A stretch of DNA of 57,355 nt from a virus, in the IMG/VR virus record IMGVR_UViG_3300044648_000391, positions 1 through 57,355 of that record, one strand, 5' to 3'. Numbering within the stretch: position 1 is the stretch's first letter; each line of letters opens with the position of its first letter. The notes below the pieces were generated by a model. That model worked only from the letters and a program-made list of their open reading frames with translations. It made no database searches and was not told where the DNA came from. Position numbers and translations under genes: made by a program. Below, in pieces: positions 6,253 through 16,187 of the stretch.

Positions 6253-6462
6253 GTGAAGCTTTCAGATTTAGTGGGCGCAATTGAATACGAAATAAAACGA
6301 TATGGTGATATAGATGTCGATCGATTAACTATTGAATATGTAGACAAAGAAATATCGCCTGCTACATTTCATCCGGTTTTCTGGGATTTTAAAGGATGCG
6401 GTTCAAAGTTATTAGAGAAGTTGCAACAAGAGATTAGTGAATACGATGGCCATACCTCTTAA
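6253..6462 (+). CDS. Hypothetical 69-residue protein
   Basis: GTG start at 6253 after AGGGGC. The body is mixed alpha/beta (KLSDLVGAIEYEIKRYG). It overlaps the start of the Xre regulator, so the two may be co-expressed. No domain recognised. Confidence 0.55.
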   Translation: MKLSDLVGAIEYEIKRYGDIDVDRLTIEYVDKEISPATFHPVFWDFKGCGSKLLEKLQQEISEYDGHTS

Positions 6463-6895
6463 AGACTGGATAAAATTAGTTAGACCGGGGGCTGTAGATT
6501 TATTTATGAATATTTTGAATAAAGAAAAAACAGAAACTGTCAAGCTAACTGAATTTGGCAAAACACTTCGCAAAGCGCGTATTGATATCGGGACAACGTT
6601 AACGTCAATGGCAGCTGAAATAGGTGTTTCGCAAGGCTTTCTTTCTAGCGTTGAGATTGGAAAAAAGAAAATATCATTTAATTTAATTAATAAGATAGAA
6701 GCTTATTTCCTAAGGTTTAATGTATCGCCGGCAGAGCTTAATATTAGGAGGTTGGCTGCCGTTAGTAATAAATTAATAGATATAGATGGTCTATCATTTG
6801 AGCAGCAGCTATTAATTGCCGAATTTGCAAGCAAGCAAAGAAGTATGGCCTTGTTGAAAAAGATTGCGGAATTGTTAGACATAACGTATATGTAG
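6446..6895 (+). CDS. Xre-family helix-turn-helix regulator
   Basis: This is a 149-residue DNA-binding protein. The helix-turn-helix spans about residues 37-90: FGKTLRKARIDIG, then SMAAEIGVSQGFLSSVEIGKK, the classic lambda-repressor fold with a glycine turn and recognition helix. An N-terminal extension of about 35 residues and a helical C-terminal tail may dimerise. A GTG three codons upstream is an alternative start. It is the last gene before the structured RNA at 6902 and may control this accessory region. Confidence 0.8.
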   Translation: MAIPLKDWIKLVRPGAVDLFMNILNKEKTETVKLTEFGKTLRKARIDIGTTLTSMAAEIGVSQGFLSSVEIGKKKISFNLINKIEAYFLRFNVSPAELNIRRLAAVSNKLIDIDGLSFEQQLLIAEFASKQRSMALLKKIAELLDITYM

Positions 6896-6901
6896 AATCA
6901 C

Positions 6902-7096
6902 GGAGCCAAGTGCGCGGACGATGACGCGCTATACCTTGGGGAGTGGTAAAGTAGATGAGGTGGGAAGCTGTGTGCCTACCAAGAGACCGCCGAGAGTTGG
7001 CAGAGATGCACAGTCTTTGCTAACTTGTAAACTCTTTGGCTAGCAGCCAATAAAATCGGAAAATTCTACGGCCCGGTTCAATTCCGGGATGGCTCC
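6902..7096 (+). ncRNA. tRNA-like RNA with a large folded insert (RNA A)
   Basis: The ends form a perfect 7-bp acceptor, GGAGCCA (6902-6908) with TGGCTCC (7090-7096). Inside lie a 5-bp D-like arm (GCGCG 6912-6916 / CGCGC 6925-6929) and a T arm (CCCGG, TTCAATT, CCGGG; 7072-7088). Where the anticodon arm should be, GTAGA (6951-6955) pairs with TCTAC (7065-7069) and encloses about 110 bases. That insert has its own hairpins: GGTGGG/CCTACC, GAGAGTT/AACTCTT with an inner GCAGAGA/TCTTTGC, and TTGGCT/AGCCAA. The layout recalls tmRNA, but it is too short, has no plausible tag frame and lacks the tmRNA 5' signature. It could also be an interrupted tRNA. The class is unknown; see RNA B at 47361. Confidence 0.65.
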
Positions 7097-7158
7097 ACCT
7101 TATACACTGTAACGACATATCGTAACAACATGTCGACAGAAGCAGGAAGTACCGACAC

Positions 7159-7542
7159 ATGAGAAAGATTGCTATTAGAAAGATACTGGAAGAGGCATAT
7201 GAATTGCGTGCGATATTTAGTCATTACAAACGAATAAAGACTGCGTATCATCAATATGCACTAGACATGCAAAACAAGAGTGTGGCGTTGTCATCCCATA
7301 ACTATCAATACTACGTAGCAGATGCGCGAGAATTCGTATTGGTAAAACCAAGGTTTAAGAATAACGAATATGTTCACGAATTCCTATCAAAGGACCTTGA
7401 TGTAAGCTGTGACGAGCTGTTAACAAAAACCAAGCTAATTGAGGCGAAGATATCCAGGGATATGCGGTATGCTAAGTTTGACGGAGCTGCGGGCAATATT
7501 ATTCAGGCATTGGAGGAGATTAGGTTGTTATGGAAAGAGTAG
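7159..7542 (+). CDS. Hypothetical helical protein
   Basis: This is a 127-residue protein, nearly all helical, basic at the start (MRKIAIRKILEEAYEL) and with many tyrosines. It follows RNA A by about 60 bases that carry further repeats of the type CGACATATCGT. Ribosome site AGGAAG upstream. No known family. Confidence 0.65.
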   Translation: MRKIAIRKILEEAYELRAIFSHYKRIKTAYHQYALDMQNKSVALSSHNYQYYVADAREFVLVKPRFKNNEYVHEFLSKDLDVSCDELLTKTKLIEAKISRDMRYAKFDGAAGNIIQALEEIRLLWKE

Positions 7543-7570
7543 TGAACTATTTATTTACGTGCGGTAATCC

Positions 7571-7723
7571 ATGAATTTCATAATTACTAACATAATCGGC
7601 ATCATATTCTGGTCCATATTCTTAGGGGTTTGCGATAAATTTGGTGTTGACAAACAAAGCGTTTATATAGGAGCTATAGCCGGTACTTTATCCACATTGC
7701 TTTTGTGGTGGGTAAACGAGTAG
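7571..7723 (+). CDS. Small membrane protein, 50 residues (holin-like topology)
   Basis: Two hydrophobic segments (NIIGIIFWSIFLGV near residues 7-20 and YIGAIAGTLSTLLLWWV near 31-48) are separated by a short charged loop (DKFGVDKQ). This is the size and shape of a class II holin, but also of many small phage membrane proteins. The ribosome site is weak. A role in lysis is a guess. Confidence 0.5.
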   Translation: MNFIITNIIGIIFWSIFLGVCDKFGVDKQSVYIGAIAGTLSTLLLWWVNE

Positions 7724-8102
7724 AATGCATCTGCACCCTGAACACTAGATGTCCAGACCGTCAAGACCTGTCGGGCAACGCTATTCTGGAAGCGTAAGGT
7801 GATGCTCGTTCATGTAGTTTTGTTCAGACGTTAGCTACAAGGCGCTTATCTTAATCTGGTATTGAAATAAGATAAGTGAGTACGCGGTTTCAAAGTTTAG
7901 TGTTCGGGGTTTATTCTCACCAATACTTGCATAATCAACTACAATGCAATACAATCTATTTGTCTTGGGTATTATGTTTGCTTGCAATCGAGAAGTTAAA
8001 CACCTCAGCGCCACAGGTAGGTTTAATATTCAGGGCTAACAAGTGGCGGGGTAGGTTACGCATATTTCCTTACCCAGCTGCTTTTTAAAATCAGGAGGCG
8101 TT
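7724..8102 (+). ncRNA. Gene-free stretch with strong secondary structure (candidate structured RNA)
   Basis: GCATC (7727-7731) pairs with GATGC (7801-7805), enclosing a TCCAGA/TCTGGA stem and an AGCGT/ATGCT hairpin, so 7724-7811 looks like one folded domain. TGTAG/CTACA follows, then an 11-bp hairpin CGCTTATCTTA/TAAGATAAGTG near 7842-7878 with no T tract. A last hairpin, GGGTAGG/CCTTACC, lies just before the next gene's ribosome site. A 70-codon GTG frame at 7876 crosses these structures and is not convincing. Confidence 0.45.
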
Positions 8103-8651
8103 ATGTTATCTTTTTTAAAGAAAATCTTACGTGAAGCGTGTAGGCGTTGTAAGTGCGAGGATAGTGATGGTCAAGAGTATAGTTATCTTGATGATTATTT
8201 ACGGTTTGGTGTTAAGAGAGAGTTAAGCGAAACGTCTTTGACATTTGGTAGGTATATAGGGAAAGCAGAAAATTTTAATTTTGAGACTGGGGAGTGTGAG
8301 TTTTCAGACGTTTATTGCTATTTAGGTGCTTTAGATTATCACAATTGCAGTGTTAAACCTGCGGTTGTTTTTTATGTGGGAGATAATAAAAAATTTGCGG
8401 GTGAATCCAAAGAGACTATTACATCTATTGGACCTATAGAAGAATCAGATAGAGATAAGCTGCATAGAGCCATGCAGGTTGCTAAGGAGCGCTACGAAAG
8501 TCAGGATAGGAAAGTTCTTATTAATGAGTCAAAGGCGATGTTGGCAGATGCTGAAATTACTCTAAGCCAAATAAATAAAGCATGCGTAGGGAAGGTAGCA
8601 AGTCTAGATTCAGAAAATAACCATAAGCCTAAGAAAAAGGGAAGTAAATAA
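8103..8651 (+). CDS. Hypothetical protein
   Basis: This is a 182-residue protein with ribosome site AGGAGG. The basic cysteine-containing N-terminus (FLKKILREACRRCKCED) is followed by a beta-rich middle and a helical, lysine-rich C-terminus. The CRRCKC cluster could bind metal but lacks a second pair. No family recognised. Confidence 0.65.
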   Translation: MLSFLKKILREACRRCKCEDSDGQEYSYLDDYLRFGVKRELSETSLTFGRYIGKAENFNFETGECEFSDVYCYLGALDYHNCSVKPAVVFYVGDNKKFAGESKETITSIGPIEESDRDKLHRAMQVAKERYESQDRKVLINESKAMLADAEITLSQINKACVGKVASLDSENNHKPKKKGSK

Positions 8652-9170: not shown

Positions 9171-9305
9171 TCCGTGAGTGACTTTTGGGCTGGATTTATT
9201 GTCTGCCTAATCTTGTCTCTATCTTGTCTCTGTTAGCTTTTTGCCTTTTCAATCAGGCAAGGTTAGCAGAGACAGGCAAACCTCAATGGTGTGAGAAGTC
9301 TGGTT
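9171..9305 (+). promoter_or_regulatory. Leader with alternative hairpins upstream of the RNA ligase gene
   Basis: Two folds compete here. One is a nested hairpin: GTCTCTG (9226-9232) with CAGAGAC (9267-9273), around TTGCCT (9241-9246) with AGGCAA (9255-9260). The other pairs CTAATCTTG (9207-9215) with CAAGGTTAG (9258-9266), extended by GTCT (9201-9204) with AGAC (9270-9273). Mutually exclusive stems suggest regulated expression of the ligase. Confidence 0.45.
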
Positions 9306-10379
9306 ATGGCAATTGAATATATTTCATTAATGCATGACAAAATACAAAAGTTTGACATTAGCTATGCTGAAGATTTAATTGCTGATGGATGGATAAGACG
9401 TAGCGCTCATCCTTCGGGTGAACTTTTTATTTATAACTATACCGAAAAGACAGTCTACGAAAAGTTTTGGAATCAATATACTTTACAATGTCGAGGATTA
9501 ATCACTGACATAGAAGGTAATATCATTGCGCGACCATTTCCTAAGATTTTTAATGTAGAAGAGCTAGATAGTTTACCTAATGAGCCTTACGATGTTTACG
9601 AAAAACTAGATGGGTCCCTAGGTATTCTTTATTTTTATAAAGATAAGCCCTATATAGCGACCAGAGGGTCCTTTACAGGCGAGCAAGCGGTTGTTGCTAA
9701 TGAAATGCTTCAGAAATTAGATACTAGTGCATTTAGAAAAGGTCTTACCTATTTGTTTGAAATTATTTACCCAGAAAATAGAATAGTCGTAAATTATGGG
9801 GATGAGCGTTCGTTGCGATTAATTGGTCTTGTGGTTACAGCAACCGGTGAAGATATTTCCGACCTAGATGTTCAAGGATATGGCAGATTTCCTCACATTA
9901 CTGCGCTTAATCCTTCTGTTCCAGCGCTACAAGCTTTAAATATCCAAAACAAAGAAGGCTTTGTCCTTAGATTTAAGAGCGGTATCCGCGTTAAAGTAAA
10001 ATTTAAAGACTATGTTATGTTGCATAGCATTATTACTGAAATGACGGCGCGTAAGGTATGGGAAGCGGTTAAGAGTAATAAGTCATTTGATGAGTTTATT
10101 AAAAACATTCCAGACGAAATATTTGGGTGGATCAAAGCTAAGGAAAATTACTTCAAGGAACAATACGCCTTAATAGAGAGCAAAGCAAAAGCAGACCTTA
10201 ATAAGATAATGGGTGAATACCATGAAAACCGAAAAAGTGTTGCTATGATGATTAAGAATTGTGATAACCCGCATGTACTGTTTAGAATGTTCGATGATAA
10301 AGATTATAGCGAATGTATTTGGAAGACACTTGAACCTGAGCACGAACTACCTATACTTGACACACAAAAAAACACATGA
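9306..10379 (+). CDS. rnlA: T4 Rnl1-type ATP-dependent RNA ligase
   Basis: This is a 357-residue RNA ligase that joins 3'-OH and 5'-phosphate RNA ends through an enzyme-AMP intermediate. The nucleotidyltransferase motifs are present: motif I YEKLDGSLG (catalytic lysine near residue 100), the upstream LQCRGL and ARPFPKIFN segments typical of the Rnl1 family, motif IV EGFVLRF, and motif V KVKFK. The C-terminal 110 residues are helical, as in T4 Rnl1. ATG 9306 is used; a GTG five codons upstream is possible. In T4 the enzyme repairs tRNA cut by the host anticodon nuclease PrrC. Here it lies between structured non-coding stretches and upstream of a second RNA ligase. Confidence 0.92.
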   Translation: MAIEYISLMHDKIQKFDISYAEDLIADGWIRRSAHPSGELFIYNYTEKTVYEKFWNQYTLQCRGLITDIEGNIIARPFPKIFNVEELDSLPNEPYDVYEKLDGSLGILYFYKDKPYIATRGSFTGEQAVVANEMLQKLDTSAFRKGLTYLFEIIYPENRIVVNYGDERSLRLIGLVVTATGEDISDLDVQGYGRFPHITALNPSVPALQALNIQNKEGFVLRFKSGIRVKVKFKDYVMLHSIITEMTARKVWEAVKSNKSFDEFIKNIPDEIFGWIKAKENYFKEQYALIESKAKADLNKIMGEYHENRKSVAMMIKNCDNPHVLFRMFDDKDYSECIWKTLEPEHELPILDTQKNT

Positions 10380-10758
10380 TACATTACCCGCCAGAATGCA
10401 TAGGAGTTGGGTCGGCTCCTGAGAGCTAGTCGTTAGGTAAATTCTCGAGCATTCTTACTAGTCTCTGTAACCGGTGAGCCGTACATCCGACGGGGTGTAC
10501 TCATTGTTTTGCAGCCAAGGCGAGCCATGTACGGTGAACCGTGCTTTAACCTTCTGGTAGGGAGGGTGGTTCACAAAACCTTGGAAGTCGCAAGCCGTAA
10601 GGGTGAGGGGGATAGCGGGTGGGTTTAAAGCGTATACGCTGTCCGTAAGCTCTAGGCAACTAGGCACTAGCTACGCTAAAAATAGTTTTACCACGGTACA
10701 TACTAGTCGGCATAAACGTCATCTCGAATTCCGGCCCGTCTATTCTTTACGGTGAGCT
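10380..10758 (+). ncRNA. Gene-free stretch with extensive secondary structure (candidate large structured RNA)
   Basis: About 380 bases without a credible gene. GTACATCC (10481-10488) and GGGTGTAC (10493-10500) form an 8-bp hairpin with a GACG loop. Alternatively CCGTACAT (10479-10486) can pair with ATGTACGG (10527-10534). CCAAGG (10515-10520) with CCTTGG (10579-10584) encloses GTGAACC/GGTTCAC (10534-10540/10568-10574) and an inner ACCTTC/GAGGGT hairpin. AGCGTATACGCT follows near 10629-10640. The size and phage setting recall large phage RNAs such as ROOL and GOLLD, but I cannot match it to either. Confidence 0.5.
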
Positions 10759-11550
10759 ATGTTTTCAAAAATTAAAAGATATCTGCAAGATAAATTCTTC
10801 GATAAATACATTCCGTTGAACAAAGCAATTAAAGAGCTGTACAAGCTTGAAAAAAGCCTGATGCCTGGTAATGTGCCTGTAGGGGGGTTATGGGCGTGGA
10901 ATGCTTCAGAGGAATACAAGATTGTCCGAGAGTACTACCTTTTTAATCGGGGGTTGCAGCACCGCCTTTATGGTAAATTGAATCCTGACATATCGATAAA
11001 AAATAATTTCTTTCATATTGGTTGTGGCAGCCTACCTGCCTGGTCAGTAACCAATGAAACGGGTAAAAGAAATAGTACTAATATCCATATAAGCCATGTT
11101 TGGCGTGGTAATAATATTGTTGTTTACAAATATCAGAAACACGATCCATCTTTTTTTATCCCAAGCTCAATGTATATGACTGACATTACTGAATCTAAAA
11201 GAACATATATAGTTGCAATACATGACGTATCCGTAAAGCGTTCTCATCTTAGACATCTAGTGGATATCATTAAACAAGAGGCAGCAGAGTCACCAAGCAC
11301 TACCGAACACAAAGAGGATTTAAAACAAATCAGAAAAAGACGTAAGCGTGAGAAGCGACGATATAAAAACTCTGCAAAGTATAAAAAACGTAGGTTAGAA
11401 CTCATAGTTGATAAGAGAATACAGAAGACGGAGGCAGGTTTCCGAAAGCAGTGCTGGTTGTTTAAAGATATGTTTAATATACTCAAAGGGCACAACGATG
11501 AGTCGCATAAACCTATGTCGTATTCGCCTTCATGGGGTCCTGGTAAGTGA
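10759..11550 (+). CDS. Hypothetical protein with a strongly basic C-terminal region
   Basis: This is a 263-residue protein. The first 175 residues are a mixed fold with an SHVWRGNN-like segment and no recognised motif. Residues about 188-225 are dominated by lysine and arginine (RKRRKREKRRYKNS...), suggesting RNA or DNA binding. It is the first gene after the structured stretch 10380-10758 and overlaps the next gene by four bases, placing it in the RNA-repair operon. A role with that RNA is only suggested by position. Confidence 0.65.
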   Translation: MFSKIKRYLQDKFFDKYIPLNKAIKELYKLEKSLMPGNVPVGGLWAWNASEEYKIVREYYLFNRGLQHRLYGKLNPDISIKNNFFHIGCGSLPAWSVTNETGKRNSTNIHISHVWRGNNIVVYKYQKHDPSFFIPSSMYMTDITESKRTYIVAIHDVSVKRSHLRHLVDIIKQEAAESPSTTEHKEDLKQIRKRRKREKRRYKNSAKYKKRRLELIVDKRIQKTEAGFRKQCWLFKDMFNILKGHNDESHKPMSYSPSWGPGK

Positions 11551-11984: not shown

Positions 11985-12259
11985 CAACTTTTGCATTACA
12001 AATAGACCCACGCGACCTGCGCATTGATATTTTTAGCGATTCTGGCGCGATGGTTAAAAACAAGTTAGGTATAAAAACTATTCGTATAACGCATTTACCA
12101 TCTGGCGAAGTCACAGAATGTGGTGACACATGCTCTAGGCATCCTAATATCTCCGCATGGAATATAGACCGAAAAAAATGTGCTATATCTCAGTTAAAGC
12201 AGAAGTTAAACGACAGTATCAAAGCTAAGCAATCAGGGGCAGGAAATGGAAGAAGTTAA
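11981..12259 (+). CDS. Release-factor-like (RF-1 domain) small protein lacking GGQ
   Basis: This is a 92-residue protein. Residues 12-48 follow the catalytic domain of class I release factors: DLRIDIFSDSGA, then TIRITHLPSGEVTEC, then RHPN...A and a C-terminal QLKQKL helix. These match the family pattern D.RID.FR.SGAGGQ..N...AVRITH.PTG.V..C....S..KN. The GGQ that triggers peptide release is replaced (SGAMVKNK), so peptidyl-tRNA hydrolysis is unlikely. It may occupy the ribosomal A site or bind cut ribosomes. The RF homologue PrfH is known to pair with RtcB in bacterial RNA repair. Here the gene lies between two RNA ligases and 3 kb from an rtcB. Confidence 0.6.
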   Translation: MTTFALQIDPRDLRIDIFSDSGAMVKNKLGIKTIRITHLPSGEVTECGDTCSRHPNISAWNIDRKKCAISQLKQKLNDSIKAKQSGAGNGRS

Positions 12260-13394
12260 AAGAAAGCTAGCATCAATTCGGGTTATATCTGAAATCAAGC
12301 CGATAGAAGGTGCGGATAACATAGAGCTTGCTATTGTTGATGGCTGGCAGTGCGTGGTTAAGAAAGGTGATTTTGAGGCTGGCAATTTATGTGTTTATTT
12401 TGAAATAGATTCATTCTTGCCTATACGCCCAGAGTTTGAATTCCTCCGCAAGTCTTCGTATAAGAAGATGGGTAATAAAGAGGGATTTAGGCTTAAAACG
12501 ATTAGGCTTAGAGGTCAGATATCGCAGGGATTGGTGTTAAGGATAGGATTCTTAACATATAATGCGAAAAGGAGTACCTTATATTTCTCGTTAGAAGGAG
12601 ACATTTTGCGTACTATACCGGCATATCCAAATTTATGCTCACAAGCCATTACTCTGAGCGACAAGGAGTATGAAGAATTTAAGCGTAATAGTCTCGGGGG
12701 AACCGACCTTACAGAAGTTTTAGGTATCGAAAAATACGAACCACCCATCCCCGCATGTTTAGCCGGAAAGGTTAAGGGCAACTTTCCGTCATTTATCCGT
12801 AAAACAGACTTAGAGCGTGTACAGAATATCTGGGGTGACATAAAAGACCGTATGGAATCATTTGAGGTGACGGTTAAGCTAGATGGTACAAGCTGTACGT
12901 TTTATTTGAAAGATGGGGTATTCGGTGTCTGTTCACGTAACCTAGAGCTAAAGGAAGAAGAGAACAACACTTACTGGAAGATGGCCAGAAAATACAATAT
13001 TGAGCAGCTGCTTAGAGATTGTGGCCAAAACCTAGCACTACAGGGCGAAATCATTGGGGAAGGTATACAAGGCAATCCTGAGGGTATTCAGGGGCAAGAA
13101 TTCTACTTGTTTGATATTTGGGATATTGATAACCATCGATATTTAATGCCGCTTGAAAGGGTTTTGTTATGGACTGATAAGTTTAACTCGATACCCTGGT
13201 GTCCGTATACAGAAGAGCGTGGACTTAGCTTCGACAAGGATTTATCACACCTAGATTTAAACGAATTCCTAGGATATGCAAATGGCAAGTCATTACATGC
13301 TGATATGCGGGAAGGGATTGTATTTAAGTCAAACGATTCCGACCTAAGATTTAAGGTTATATCAAATGAATATTTATTAAAGAAGGGTGATTAA
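12246..13394 (+). CDS. RNA ligase of the Deinococcus Rnl (Rnl5) type
   Basis: This is a 382-residue ligase. Residues 5-100 form the OB-like N-terminal domain of this family (KLASIRVISEIKPIEGADNI..., then GQISQGLVL). The nucleotidyltransferase domain follows: catalytic lysine about 211 in VTVKLDGTS, then SRNLELKE, QGEIIGEG, FDIWDI, EGIVFKS (motif IV) and RFKVIS (motif V). A stretch of about 40 residues at 101-145, between the two domains, looks like an insertion. Deinococcus Rnl seals nicks in RNA strands and tolerates a DNA template. The gene overlaps the RF-like gene by 14 bases and the next gene by one, so it is part of one operon. Confidence 0.9.
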   Translation: MEEVKRKLASIRVISEIKPIEGADNIELAIVDGWQCVVKKGDFEAGNLCVYFEIDSFLPIRPEFEFLRKSSYKKMGNKEGFRLKTIRLRGQISQGLVLRIGFLTYNAKRSTLYFSLEGDILRTIPAYPNLCSQAITLSDKEYEEFKRNSLGGTDLTEVLGIEKYEPPIPACLAGKVKGNFPSFIRKTDLERVQNIWGDIKDRMESFEVTVKLDGTSCTFYLKDGVFGVCSRNLELKEEENNTYWKMARKYNIEQLLRDCGQNLALQGEIIGEGIQGNPEGIQGQEFYLFDIWDIDNHRYLMPLERVLLWTDKFNSIPWCPYTEERGLSFDKDLSHLDLNEFLGYANGKSLHADMREGIVFKSNDSDLRFKVISNEYLLKKGD

Positions 13395-15026: not shown

Positions 15027-16187
15027 TTAATACCCTTTCCAATTAATAATTGGTTTTAAATGCCTTAAAACCTTAACACTTGCCTGCTGAAGCTCCATAA
15101 CCTCAAAGATATTCTTGTAAGCCATTGGGCTTTCATCTATCGTCTCTTGGTTAACGGGTGCTACAATTCCGCGCATCTTATCACGAAACTCATCCATACT
15201 TATAATCTTTCTAGCCTGCCCTCGGCTTAATGCTCTGCCAGCCCCATGCGAAGAGCTATTGAGAAAATCTGCATTCCCCAAACCTTCTACTAAAAAGCAG
15301 CCATCTTTCATGTTGGCGGGTATAACACCCCGCTCACCCTTTTCTGAAGAAGTAGCGCCCTTTCGATGCAGATAAACATTAGGTTGAACCTCAATGCAGT
15401 GATTATGATTCTTGTTAGTCCAGAGATTCTTTGTAGTATCGTATTCAACCCCACAAATAATAAAAATGGCAGCCTCTACCTTCTTCGCCATCGACAATCT
15501 ATTGAGCAATGCAAACTTTAAGCAATAATCTTGATAAATCATGTACTCTTTCTTAATCTCTTCATTCTGGATAGCATACGTTGCCTCAAATCCCTTATCG
15601 AGACCCGATACAAGCTTCATAAAGCATGTACCTATGGTGTGACCAACCCCTCGTGAACCGCTGTGTATTACGAGCCAGGTTTCGTTCTTGTATTCAAGTA
15701 TTTCAATAAAATGGTTGCCAGAACCAAGAGTGCCCAGGTTTTTAAGAGACCTATCGTTCACTTGGCGTAAAAGCCCAGATAATAAATTGCAGGAAGACAA
15801 CTTATTAAGTTTATCTAAATCGTTTTGCATACCTGCTTTGAAGTAAATATTGTCTCCTGCCTTATTAAAACCACCCATACCCATTGGAATTGAGCGGTTA
15901 ACTTCTTTAAATAACGCCACCGCATTACGCTTAATGCTTTCTTGGGCTTTCTTGTCTTCCGATATCTTAACTGCAATCATGCCGCAACCAATGTCATAAC
16001 CAACCCAGGCAGGCACAATCGCACCCGTGGTTTTAATAACACTACCAATGGGTGCTACATACCCGCTATGCGCATCTGGCATTAGGGCTGCTTCTGTTAC
16101 AAAATCATGCGCGCAGCATTCGTCAAACTGCTTCTTGGCGCTTTCTTCGAGTGACGCTATGTTTGCGTGTATGCTTATTTTTTTCAT
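15027..16187 (-). CDS. rtcB: RtcB RNA-splicing ligase (GTP-dependent)
   Basis: This is a 386-residue protein joining RNA 2',3'-cyclic phosphate or 3'-phosphate ends to 5'-OH ends, using GTP and manganese. RtcB signatures appear in order: MPDAHSGYVAPIGSV, GYDIGCGM (metal-binding D and C), LGTLGSGNHFIE (metal His), HSGSRGVGH (metal His), and SSHGAGRALSR holding the histidine that becomes guanylylated. It is shorter than many bacterial RtcBs but all catalytic motifs are intact. A GGAGAC ribosome site precedes ATG 16187, which lies within the end of the upstream gene. RtcB seals exactly the ends left by ribotoxins and tRNA-splicing endonucleases, chemistry that Rnl1-type ligases cannot do alone. 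Confidence 0.95.
   Translation of the reverse strand: MKKISIHANIASLEESAKKQFDECCAHDFVTEAALMPDAHSGYVAPIGSVIKTTGAIVPAWVGYDIGCGMIAVKISEDKKAQESIKRNAVALFKEVNRSIPMGMGGFNKAGDNIYFKAGMQNDLDKLNKLSSCNLLSGLLRQVNDRSLKNLGTLGSGNHFIEILEYKNETWLVIHSGSRGVGHTIGTCFMKLVSGLDKGFEATYAIQNEEIKKEYMIYQDYCLKFALLNRLSMAKKVEAAIFIICGVEYDTTKNLWTNKNHNHCIEVQPNVYLHRKGATSSEKGERGVIPANMKDGCFLVEGLGNADFLNSSSHGAGRALSRGQARKIISMDEFRDKMRGIVAPVNQETIDESPMAYKNIFEVMELQQASVKVLRHLKPIINWKGY

Follow-up and report, generated by a model that had tools for sequence, protein, structure and literature searches.

The noncoding gap between two co-directional ORFs of a phage genome (6437-6895 and 7159-7542) raises the question of what function may be served by an RNA that has the ends of a tRNA and, in place of an anticodon loop, a large folded domain. 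The window, i.e., the whole stretch of DNA analysed, is the 57,355-base record of an unclassified bacterial virus whose distant kin are Pelagibacter phage HTVC023P, Roseobacter phages CRP-901/902 and phage DSL-LC04 (portal identity to this group is about 31-33%, capsid identity 43-44%). The element, hereafter RNA A, is 196 bases long (6902-7097, plus strand). It starts 6 nt past the stop codon of the upstream gene and ends some 60 nt short of the downstream start codon, and no terminator-like site was found 3' of it. The GC content of this stretch is 53%, vs 42% for the window. ARAGORN calls nine ordinary tRNA genes in the window, each with an encoded CCA. The features of the locus are as follows.

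6437-6895: XRE-type HTH gene upstream of RNA A; stop codon at 6893-6895
6902-6908, plus strand: acceptor stem, 5' strand GGAGCCA; 7/7 Watson-Crick pairs with 7090-7096, pair probabilities 0.8-1.0
6912-6929, plus strand: extra hairpin GCGCG-GACGATGA-CGCGC, inserted between the acceptor and the D-like arm; pair probability 0.86-0.87
6932-6948, plus strand: predicted D-like arm TACC-TTGGGGAGT-GGTA (stem 6932-6935/6945-6948); pair probability about 0.64-0.76
6951-6955, plus strand: predicted helix at the anticodon-stem position, 5' strand GTAGA; pairs with 7065-7069, probability 0.51-0.58
6956-7064, plus strand: inserted domain of 109 nt that replaces the anticodon loop; fold z -2.8; no Rfam or blastn match
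6959-6980, plus strand: hairpin GGTGGG-AAGCTGTGTG-CCTACC; probability 0.67-0.69
6994-7026, plus strand: 14-bp hairpin with loop GCACA; probability 0.77-1.0, local z -3.3 for 6985-7036
7036-7050, plus strand: hairpin TTGGCTAGCAGCCAA; probability 0.44-0.86
7065-7069, plus strand: predicted helix at the anticodon-stem position, 3' strand TCTAC; pairs with 6951-6955
7072-7088, plus strand: canonical T arm CCCGG-TTCAATT-CCGGG; pair probability 0.99-1.0, loop matches TTCRANN
7089, plus strand: unpaired A at the junction of T stem and acceptor
7090-7099, plus strand: acceptor stem, 3' strand TGGCTCC, then discriminator A and CC, followed by T
7159-7542: ORF of no known family downstream of RNA A

The ends of RNA A carry the main evidence. 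The acceptor stem has the 7 bp expected of a tRNA, and its discriminator, A7097, is followed by C7098 and C7099, which means that ACC, not CCA, is encoded. The 5-bp T arm with its TTCRANN loop is present, but A7089 parts it from the acceptor; ordinary tRNA tolerates no unpaired base between these two stems. Outside of the ordinary tRNA genes, this is the only strict T-arm in the window. When the whole window was dinucleotide-shuffled 1000 times and a seven-pair Watson-Crick acceptor was sought 60-420 nt upstream of a strict T-arm, the combination appeared in one shuffled window and, with CC required after the discriminator, in none. The strict T-arm with its perfect acceptor is thus far beyond chance.

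Between these ends, the helices follow the tRNA order (acceptor, D-like, anticodon-position and T, with lengths of 7-4-5-5). The first-pass annotation described the acceptor, D-like and T arms as intact and a 5-bp helix enclosing strong hairpins. The acceptor (7/7) and the T arm (5/5) bear this out, as do the strong interior hairpins (probability about 1.0 for 6994-7026 and 0.69 for 6959-6980). The D-like arm is weak (its loop, TTGGGGAGT, contains GG and lacks the A14 and A21 of a real D loop), and the enclosing helix is weaker than had been stated. The description is therefore confirmed in part, since the probabilities of the D-like arm and of the 5-bp helix are only moderate (0.5-0.76). The GCGCG/CGCGC hairpin had not been described. 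The GTAGA/TCTAC helix encloses two or three more hairpins, one of which is the 14-bp one. If read with a 7-nt loop (CTAGCAG), the 7036-7050 hairpin resembles an anticodon loop to an extent expected by chance. The loop of the 6959-6980 hairpin is complementary to the 7007-7013 loop of the 6994-7026 hairpin by five Watson-Crick and two GU pairs; the five Watson-Crick pairs give p 0.02 for that pair of loops and p 0.29 when any loop pair is counted, and a kissing interaction, though attractive, is not significant once all loop pairs are considered.

The folding energy of 6902-7097 is lower than that of shuffled sequences (z -3.89, p 0.002), while 196-nt flanks on either side give z about +0.9 and the minus strand of RNA A gives z -2.2; the folding signal is restricted to 6902-7097. 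In a sliding-window scan the locus ranks 15th of 1144, and coding stretches elsewhere in the window attain similar z-scores. Since coding stretches score similarly, fold energy alone is no proof of RNA A; the proof lies in the tRNA-like ends.

The first-pass annotation held that the RNA belongs to no known class, and this stands. Rfam families gave no match at the gathering threshold and only two evident chance matches at E<=10; ARAGORN called neither a tRNA nor a tmRNA; a tRNA covariance model did not match RNA A; and group I covariance models found nothing in 6400-8200 at E<=10. There is no anticodon arm with a 7-nt loop and U33 in RNA A, 109 nt being found in its place. A search of the literature returned no report of anticodon-less tRNA-like phage RNAs.

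No homologue of RNA A was found by blastn among 50,697 phage records and 72,556 plasmids, or among viral contigs with the exact T-arm/acceptor 22-mer. A gapped acceptor and T-arm pattern matched the viral contigs once, by chance, in a sequence extending into a terminase-like gene, and a similar, stricter pattern retrieved four sequences from 84,980 prokaryote species genomes, all of them ordinary tRNA genes or tandem tRNAs. Relatives of the phage were located through their portal, capsid, terminase, terS-like and Rnl2 proteins. RNA A was found neither in their loci nor in about 20 related phage records by blastn, by the acceptor/T-arm detector or by a covariance model that, being built from one sequence, is weak evidence, and many of the relative contigs are fragments beginning at terL. 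The nearest relative, G002 (locus L092; terL 66% and capsid 67% identical), has the terS-like and Rnl2 homologues and no counterpart of RNA A. RNA A is therefore dispensable in the clade, the region is variable and the RNA is accessory. In the absence of a homologue, no covariation stands behind any helix.

Other structured stretches lie nearby. The ORF-poor stretch 7724-8102, downstream of RNA A, is closed over its first 200 nt by a 16-bp helix (CCCTGAACACTA.../...TAGTGTTCGGGG; fold z -3.7) and is probably the RNA that the first-pass annotation named RNA B; it matches no Rfam family, lacks a T-arm and is not similar to RNA A in sequence. If it is indeed RNA B, the two RNAs share no detectable sequence. 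Directly after the Rnl1 gene come 380 nt poor in ORFs (10380-10759; 50% GC), with several GAGCC/ACGGT-type hairpins, a fold z of -1.4 and no Rfam or phage match. Kinship of RNA A with either stretch was rejected at the sequence level. A long strong hairpin, GTCTCTGTTAGC.../...GGTTAGCAGAGAC (9171-9290, fold z about -4), is located just upstream of the Rnl1 gene.

RNA A thus unites an acceptor stem, a T arm, an encoded ACC and a structured interior at a noncoding location, in an element of no known class. We tentatively favour the view that it is a stand-alone phage noncoding RNA, a natural 'tRNA scaffold' that would owe its maturation and protection to the tRNA-like end and in which the insert would be the working part. 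RNase P, the 3'-end processing enzymes and the CCA-adding enzyme contact the acceptor stem, the T arm and A73-C74-C75. RNA A keeps these contacts and drops the decoding parts, which is the layout of engineered scaffolds, and we therefore infer an excised, end-stabilised RNA. The transcript carrying the upstream HTH gene would continue through RNA A; the acceptor/T-arm minihelix with A73-C74-C75 would be recognised by tRNA-processing enzymes; RNase P would cleave near 6902; and trimming, with addition of CCA by nucleotidyltransferase, would complete the 3' end. The tRNA-like cap would then guard both ends against exonucleases, and the 109-nt domain at the place of the anticodon loop would act as the effector. 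RNA A cannot decode. Charging is also unlikely, because there is no G3-U70 and because anticodon-dependent synthetases would have nothing to read.

In favour of the scaffold reading are the above-chance ends, the confined folding signal, the noncoding gap, the tRNA helix order and the ligase families nearby, as well as the retention of ACC, of the canonical T stem and of its canonical loop, features that should erode when a tRNA decays. Against it are the A7089 bulge, which may weaken recognition by tRNA enzymes, the lack of a homologue, the moderate prediction of the D-like arm and of the enclosing helix, and the absence from the nearest relative.

Three distinct RNA ligase families are encoded within this one phage, in the same region as RNA A.

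9291-10379: Rnl1-family RNA ligase gene
12246-13394: Rnl2-family RNA ligase gene
15027-16187: RtcB-family RNA ligase gene

These genes bear on the most likely specific role of RNA A, that of a decoy or sponge binding a host or phage tRNA-handling protein; it leads because a phage that encodes Rnl1, Rnl2 and RtcB may be one for which tRNA damage matters. It is possible, if doubtful, that RNA A is a decoy whose target, a tRNA-directed nuclease, toxin or modifying enzyme, reads the acceptor stem, the T arm or the CCA end; this would be a specific form of the scaffold reading. The aminoacylation decoy or toxin sponge proposed in the first-pass annotation would fit the ligase-rich context. Host anticodon nucleases have been proposed as a force shaping phage tRNAs (PMC10264068), which we count for the decoy, but such nucleases are unlikely targets of RNA A and could not be titrated by it, because the anticodon loop is missing. 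Moreover, RNA A has no defence-linked neighbour beyond generic HTH similarity. We hold it equally doubtful, though conceivable, that the structured domain of a natural tRNA-scaffold RNA titrates a tRNA-directed host factor in infection, beside the three ligases.

A cis-acting leader is rather unlikely. In that case the tRNA-like structure would sit within a message and regulate ORF 7159-7542, either through a tRNA-binding protein or through an RNase P cut between the genes. The position of RNA A between the HTH stop codon and the start of a co-directional ORF, with no terminator-like site after it, is what one would expect of such a leader, but a cut in cis requires neither an encoded ACC nor so large an interior domain. 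The ORF itself, with no known family and no relative among viral contigs, offers no check on whether the arrangement is conserved.

It is likewise improbable that RNA A is a remnant, i.e., a pseudogene left by an ordinary tRNA gene that inserted hairpins have interrupted. The missing CCA, the bulged A7089, the weak D arm, the extra hairpin and the presence of nine ordinary tRNA genes in the phage are consistent with decay, but the perfect acceptor and T stem and the canonical T loop speak against it, and the interior out-folds its shuffles. In addition, none of the phage tRNA-like elements in the 257 loci scanned shares the acceptor and T arm of RNA A.

The first-pass annotation also considered an interrupted tRNA spliced by the phage ligases, in which the insert would be excised and the halves joined, as proposed for introns in tRNAs of phages and archaeal viruses. 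The idea was reasonable given the published interrupted tRNAs of Lak phages (PMC6784885), and for the Rnl2-type ligases of haloarchaeal virus HGTV-1 a role at tRNA introns has been suggested (PMC8651126). Intron-bearing tRNAs were also found here: among the 257 loci, the acceptor and T-arm detector retrieved phage tRNAs of 114-127 nt that ARAGORN overlooks in its default mode (L231 5128-5244, 5525-5641 and 5716-5829; L200 12246-12360; L190 11146-11267 and 11277-11401). In several of them the anticodon stem is interrupted on its 5' side by about 40-54 nt, as in CG[insert]GTC-CTTTTAA-GACCG, and the inserts of L200 and L231 have in common a covarying 8-bp hairpin with AAAC(T/C)GC after it. They are likely relatives of the Lak megaphage tRNA introns, reported as 'enigmatic', and extend that observation (PMC6784885). 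The detector also retrieved candidates of 127-182 nt with a canonical T arm and a distant 7-bp acceptor (L234 7247-7373, L251 12208-12363 and L217 11312-11493), some of which may be chance or paired tRNA parts.

For RNA A, an interrupted pre-tRNA is nevertheless very improbable. No excision at the GTAGA/TCTAC stem gives U33, removal of one insert does not restore a tRNA, and the intron mode of ARAGORN rejects RNA A while accepting the interrupted tRNAs of L200, L190 and L231 in the same run. Furthermore, the inserts found elsewhere are about 40-54 nt, whereas RNA A has 109 nt plus a second insert. Single excisions yielded 320 ARAGORN tRNA variants from RNA A as is and 180 with the A7089 bulge removed, vs 0 to 202 from each of twelve shuffled interiors; with the bulge removed, one of the twelve reached the observed value. 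This comparison is suggestive at best and does not place the matches clearly above shuffles. All of the matches listed are Ala-AGC, with the anticodon taken from the 7036-7050 hairpin, a reading that is not credible because an alanine tRNA would then be without G3-U70.

A miniature or degenerate tmRNA, also raised in the first-pass annotation, is scarcely credible: the acceptor and T arm around an interior domain, the tmRNA-like 3' end TGGCTCCACC and a TLWLAA frame near 7030-7049 recall this class, but there is no tmRNA-family match at E<=10, ARAGORN calls tmRNAs in other phage loci and not in RNA A, the acceptor pair 3-70 is A6904-T7094 (A-U) where tmRNA requires G-U, and no tag frame with a stop is present, the TLWLAANK... 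frame running unstopped into the T arm with no stop after LAA and an LVNSLASSQ* frame ending in a stop without being tag-like. The tmRNA genes of the other loci lie at L181 4980-5286, L217 2749-3093 and L251 2256-2626, and that of L181 has the short predicted tag GNELALAA.

Set beside known systems, RNA A resembles tmRNA (ssrA; here, the phage tmRNAs of L181, L217 and L251) in having tRNA-like ends around a non-tRNA domain, and differs in its size (196 nt vs 307-371 nt) and in lacking a stopped tag frame, G3-U70 and a family match. With the interrupted phage tRNAs (Lak, PMC6784885; L200/L231/L190) it shares inserted sequence in the anticodon region, but in these the anticodon arm is complete and the insert, where it could be resolved, is shorter (about 37-54 nt), whereas no anticodon loop can be recovered from RNA A. 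The 7-bp acceptor, canonical T arm, A73, encoded CC and helix order are those of tRNA (RF00005); in contrast to tRNA, RNA A has no anticodon loop, CCA or Rfam/ARAGORN call, and has a 109-nt insert, an extra 5' hairpin and a bulged A. Standard tRNA finders overlook RNAs of this type, while a simple acceptor and T-arm search recovers them. If the reading is true, RNA A would be a tRNA mimic of phage origin that is not for decoding, which would bear on the reasons phages have for carrying tRNA genes along with several RNA ligases. The layout is that of the engineered tRNA scaffold used for expression in E. coli, in which the anticodon stem-loop is swapped for a foreign RNA and the acceptor, T and D arms are retained (PMC3753655). 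In RNA A, too, a structured RNA replaces the anticodon stem-loop; the engineered scaffold is man-made, and RNA A would be its natural counterpart, with putative processing and stability. If transcribed and processed as proposed, it would show in nature what has been a laboratory trick, namely to carry an RNA of interest inside a tRNA shell.
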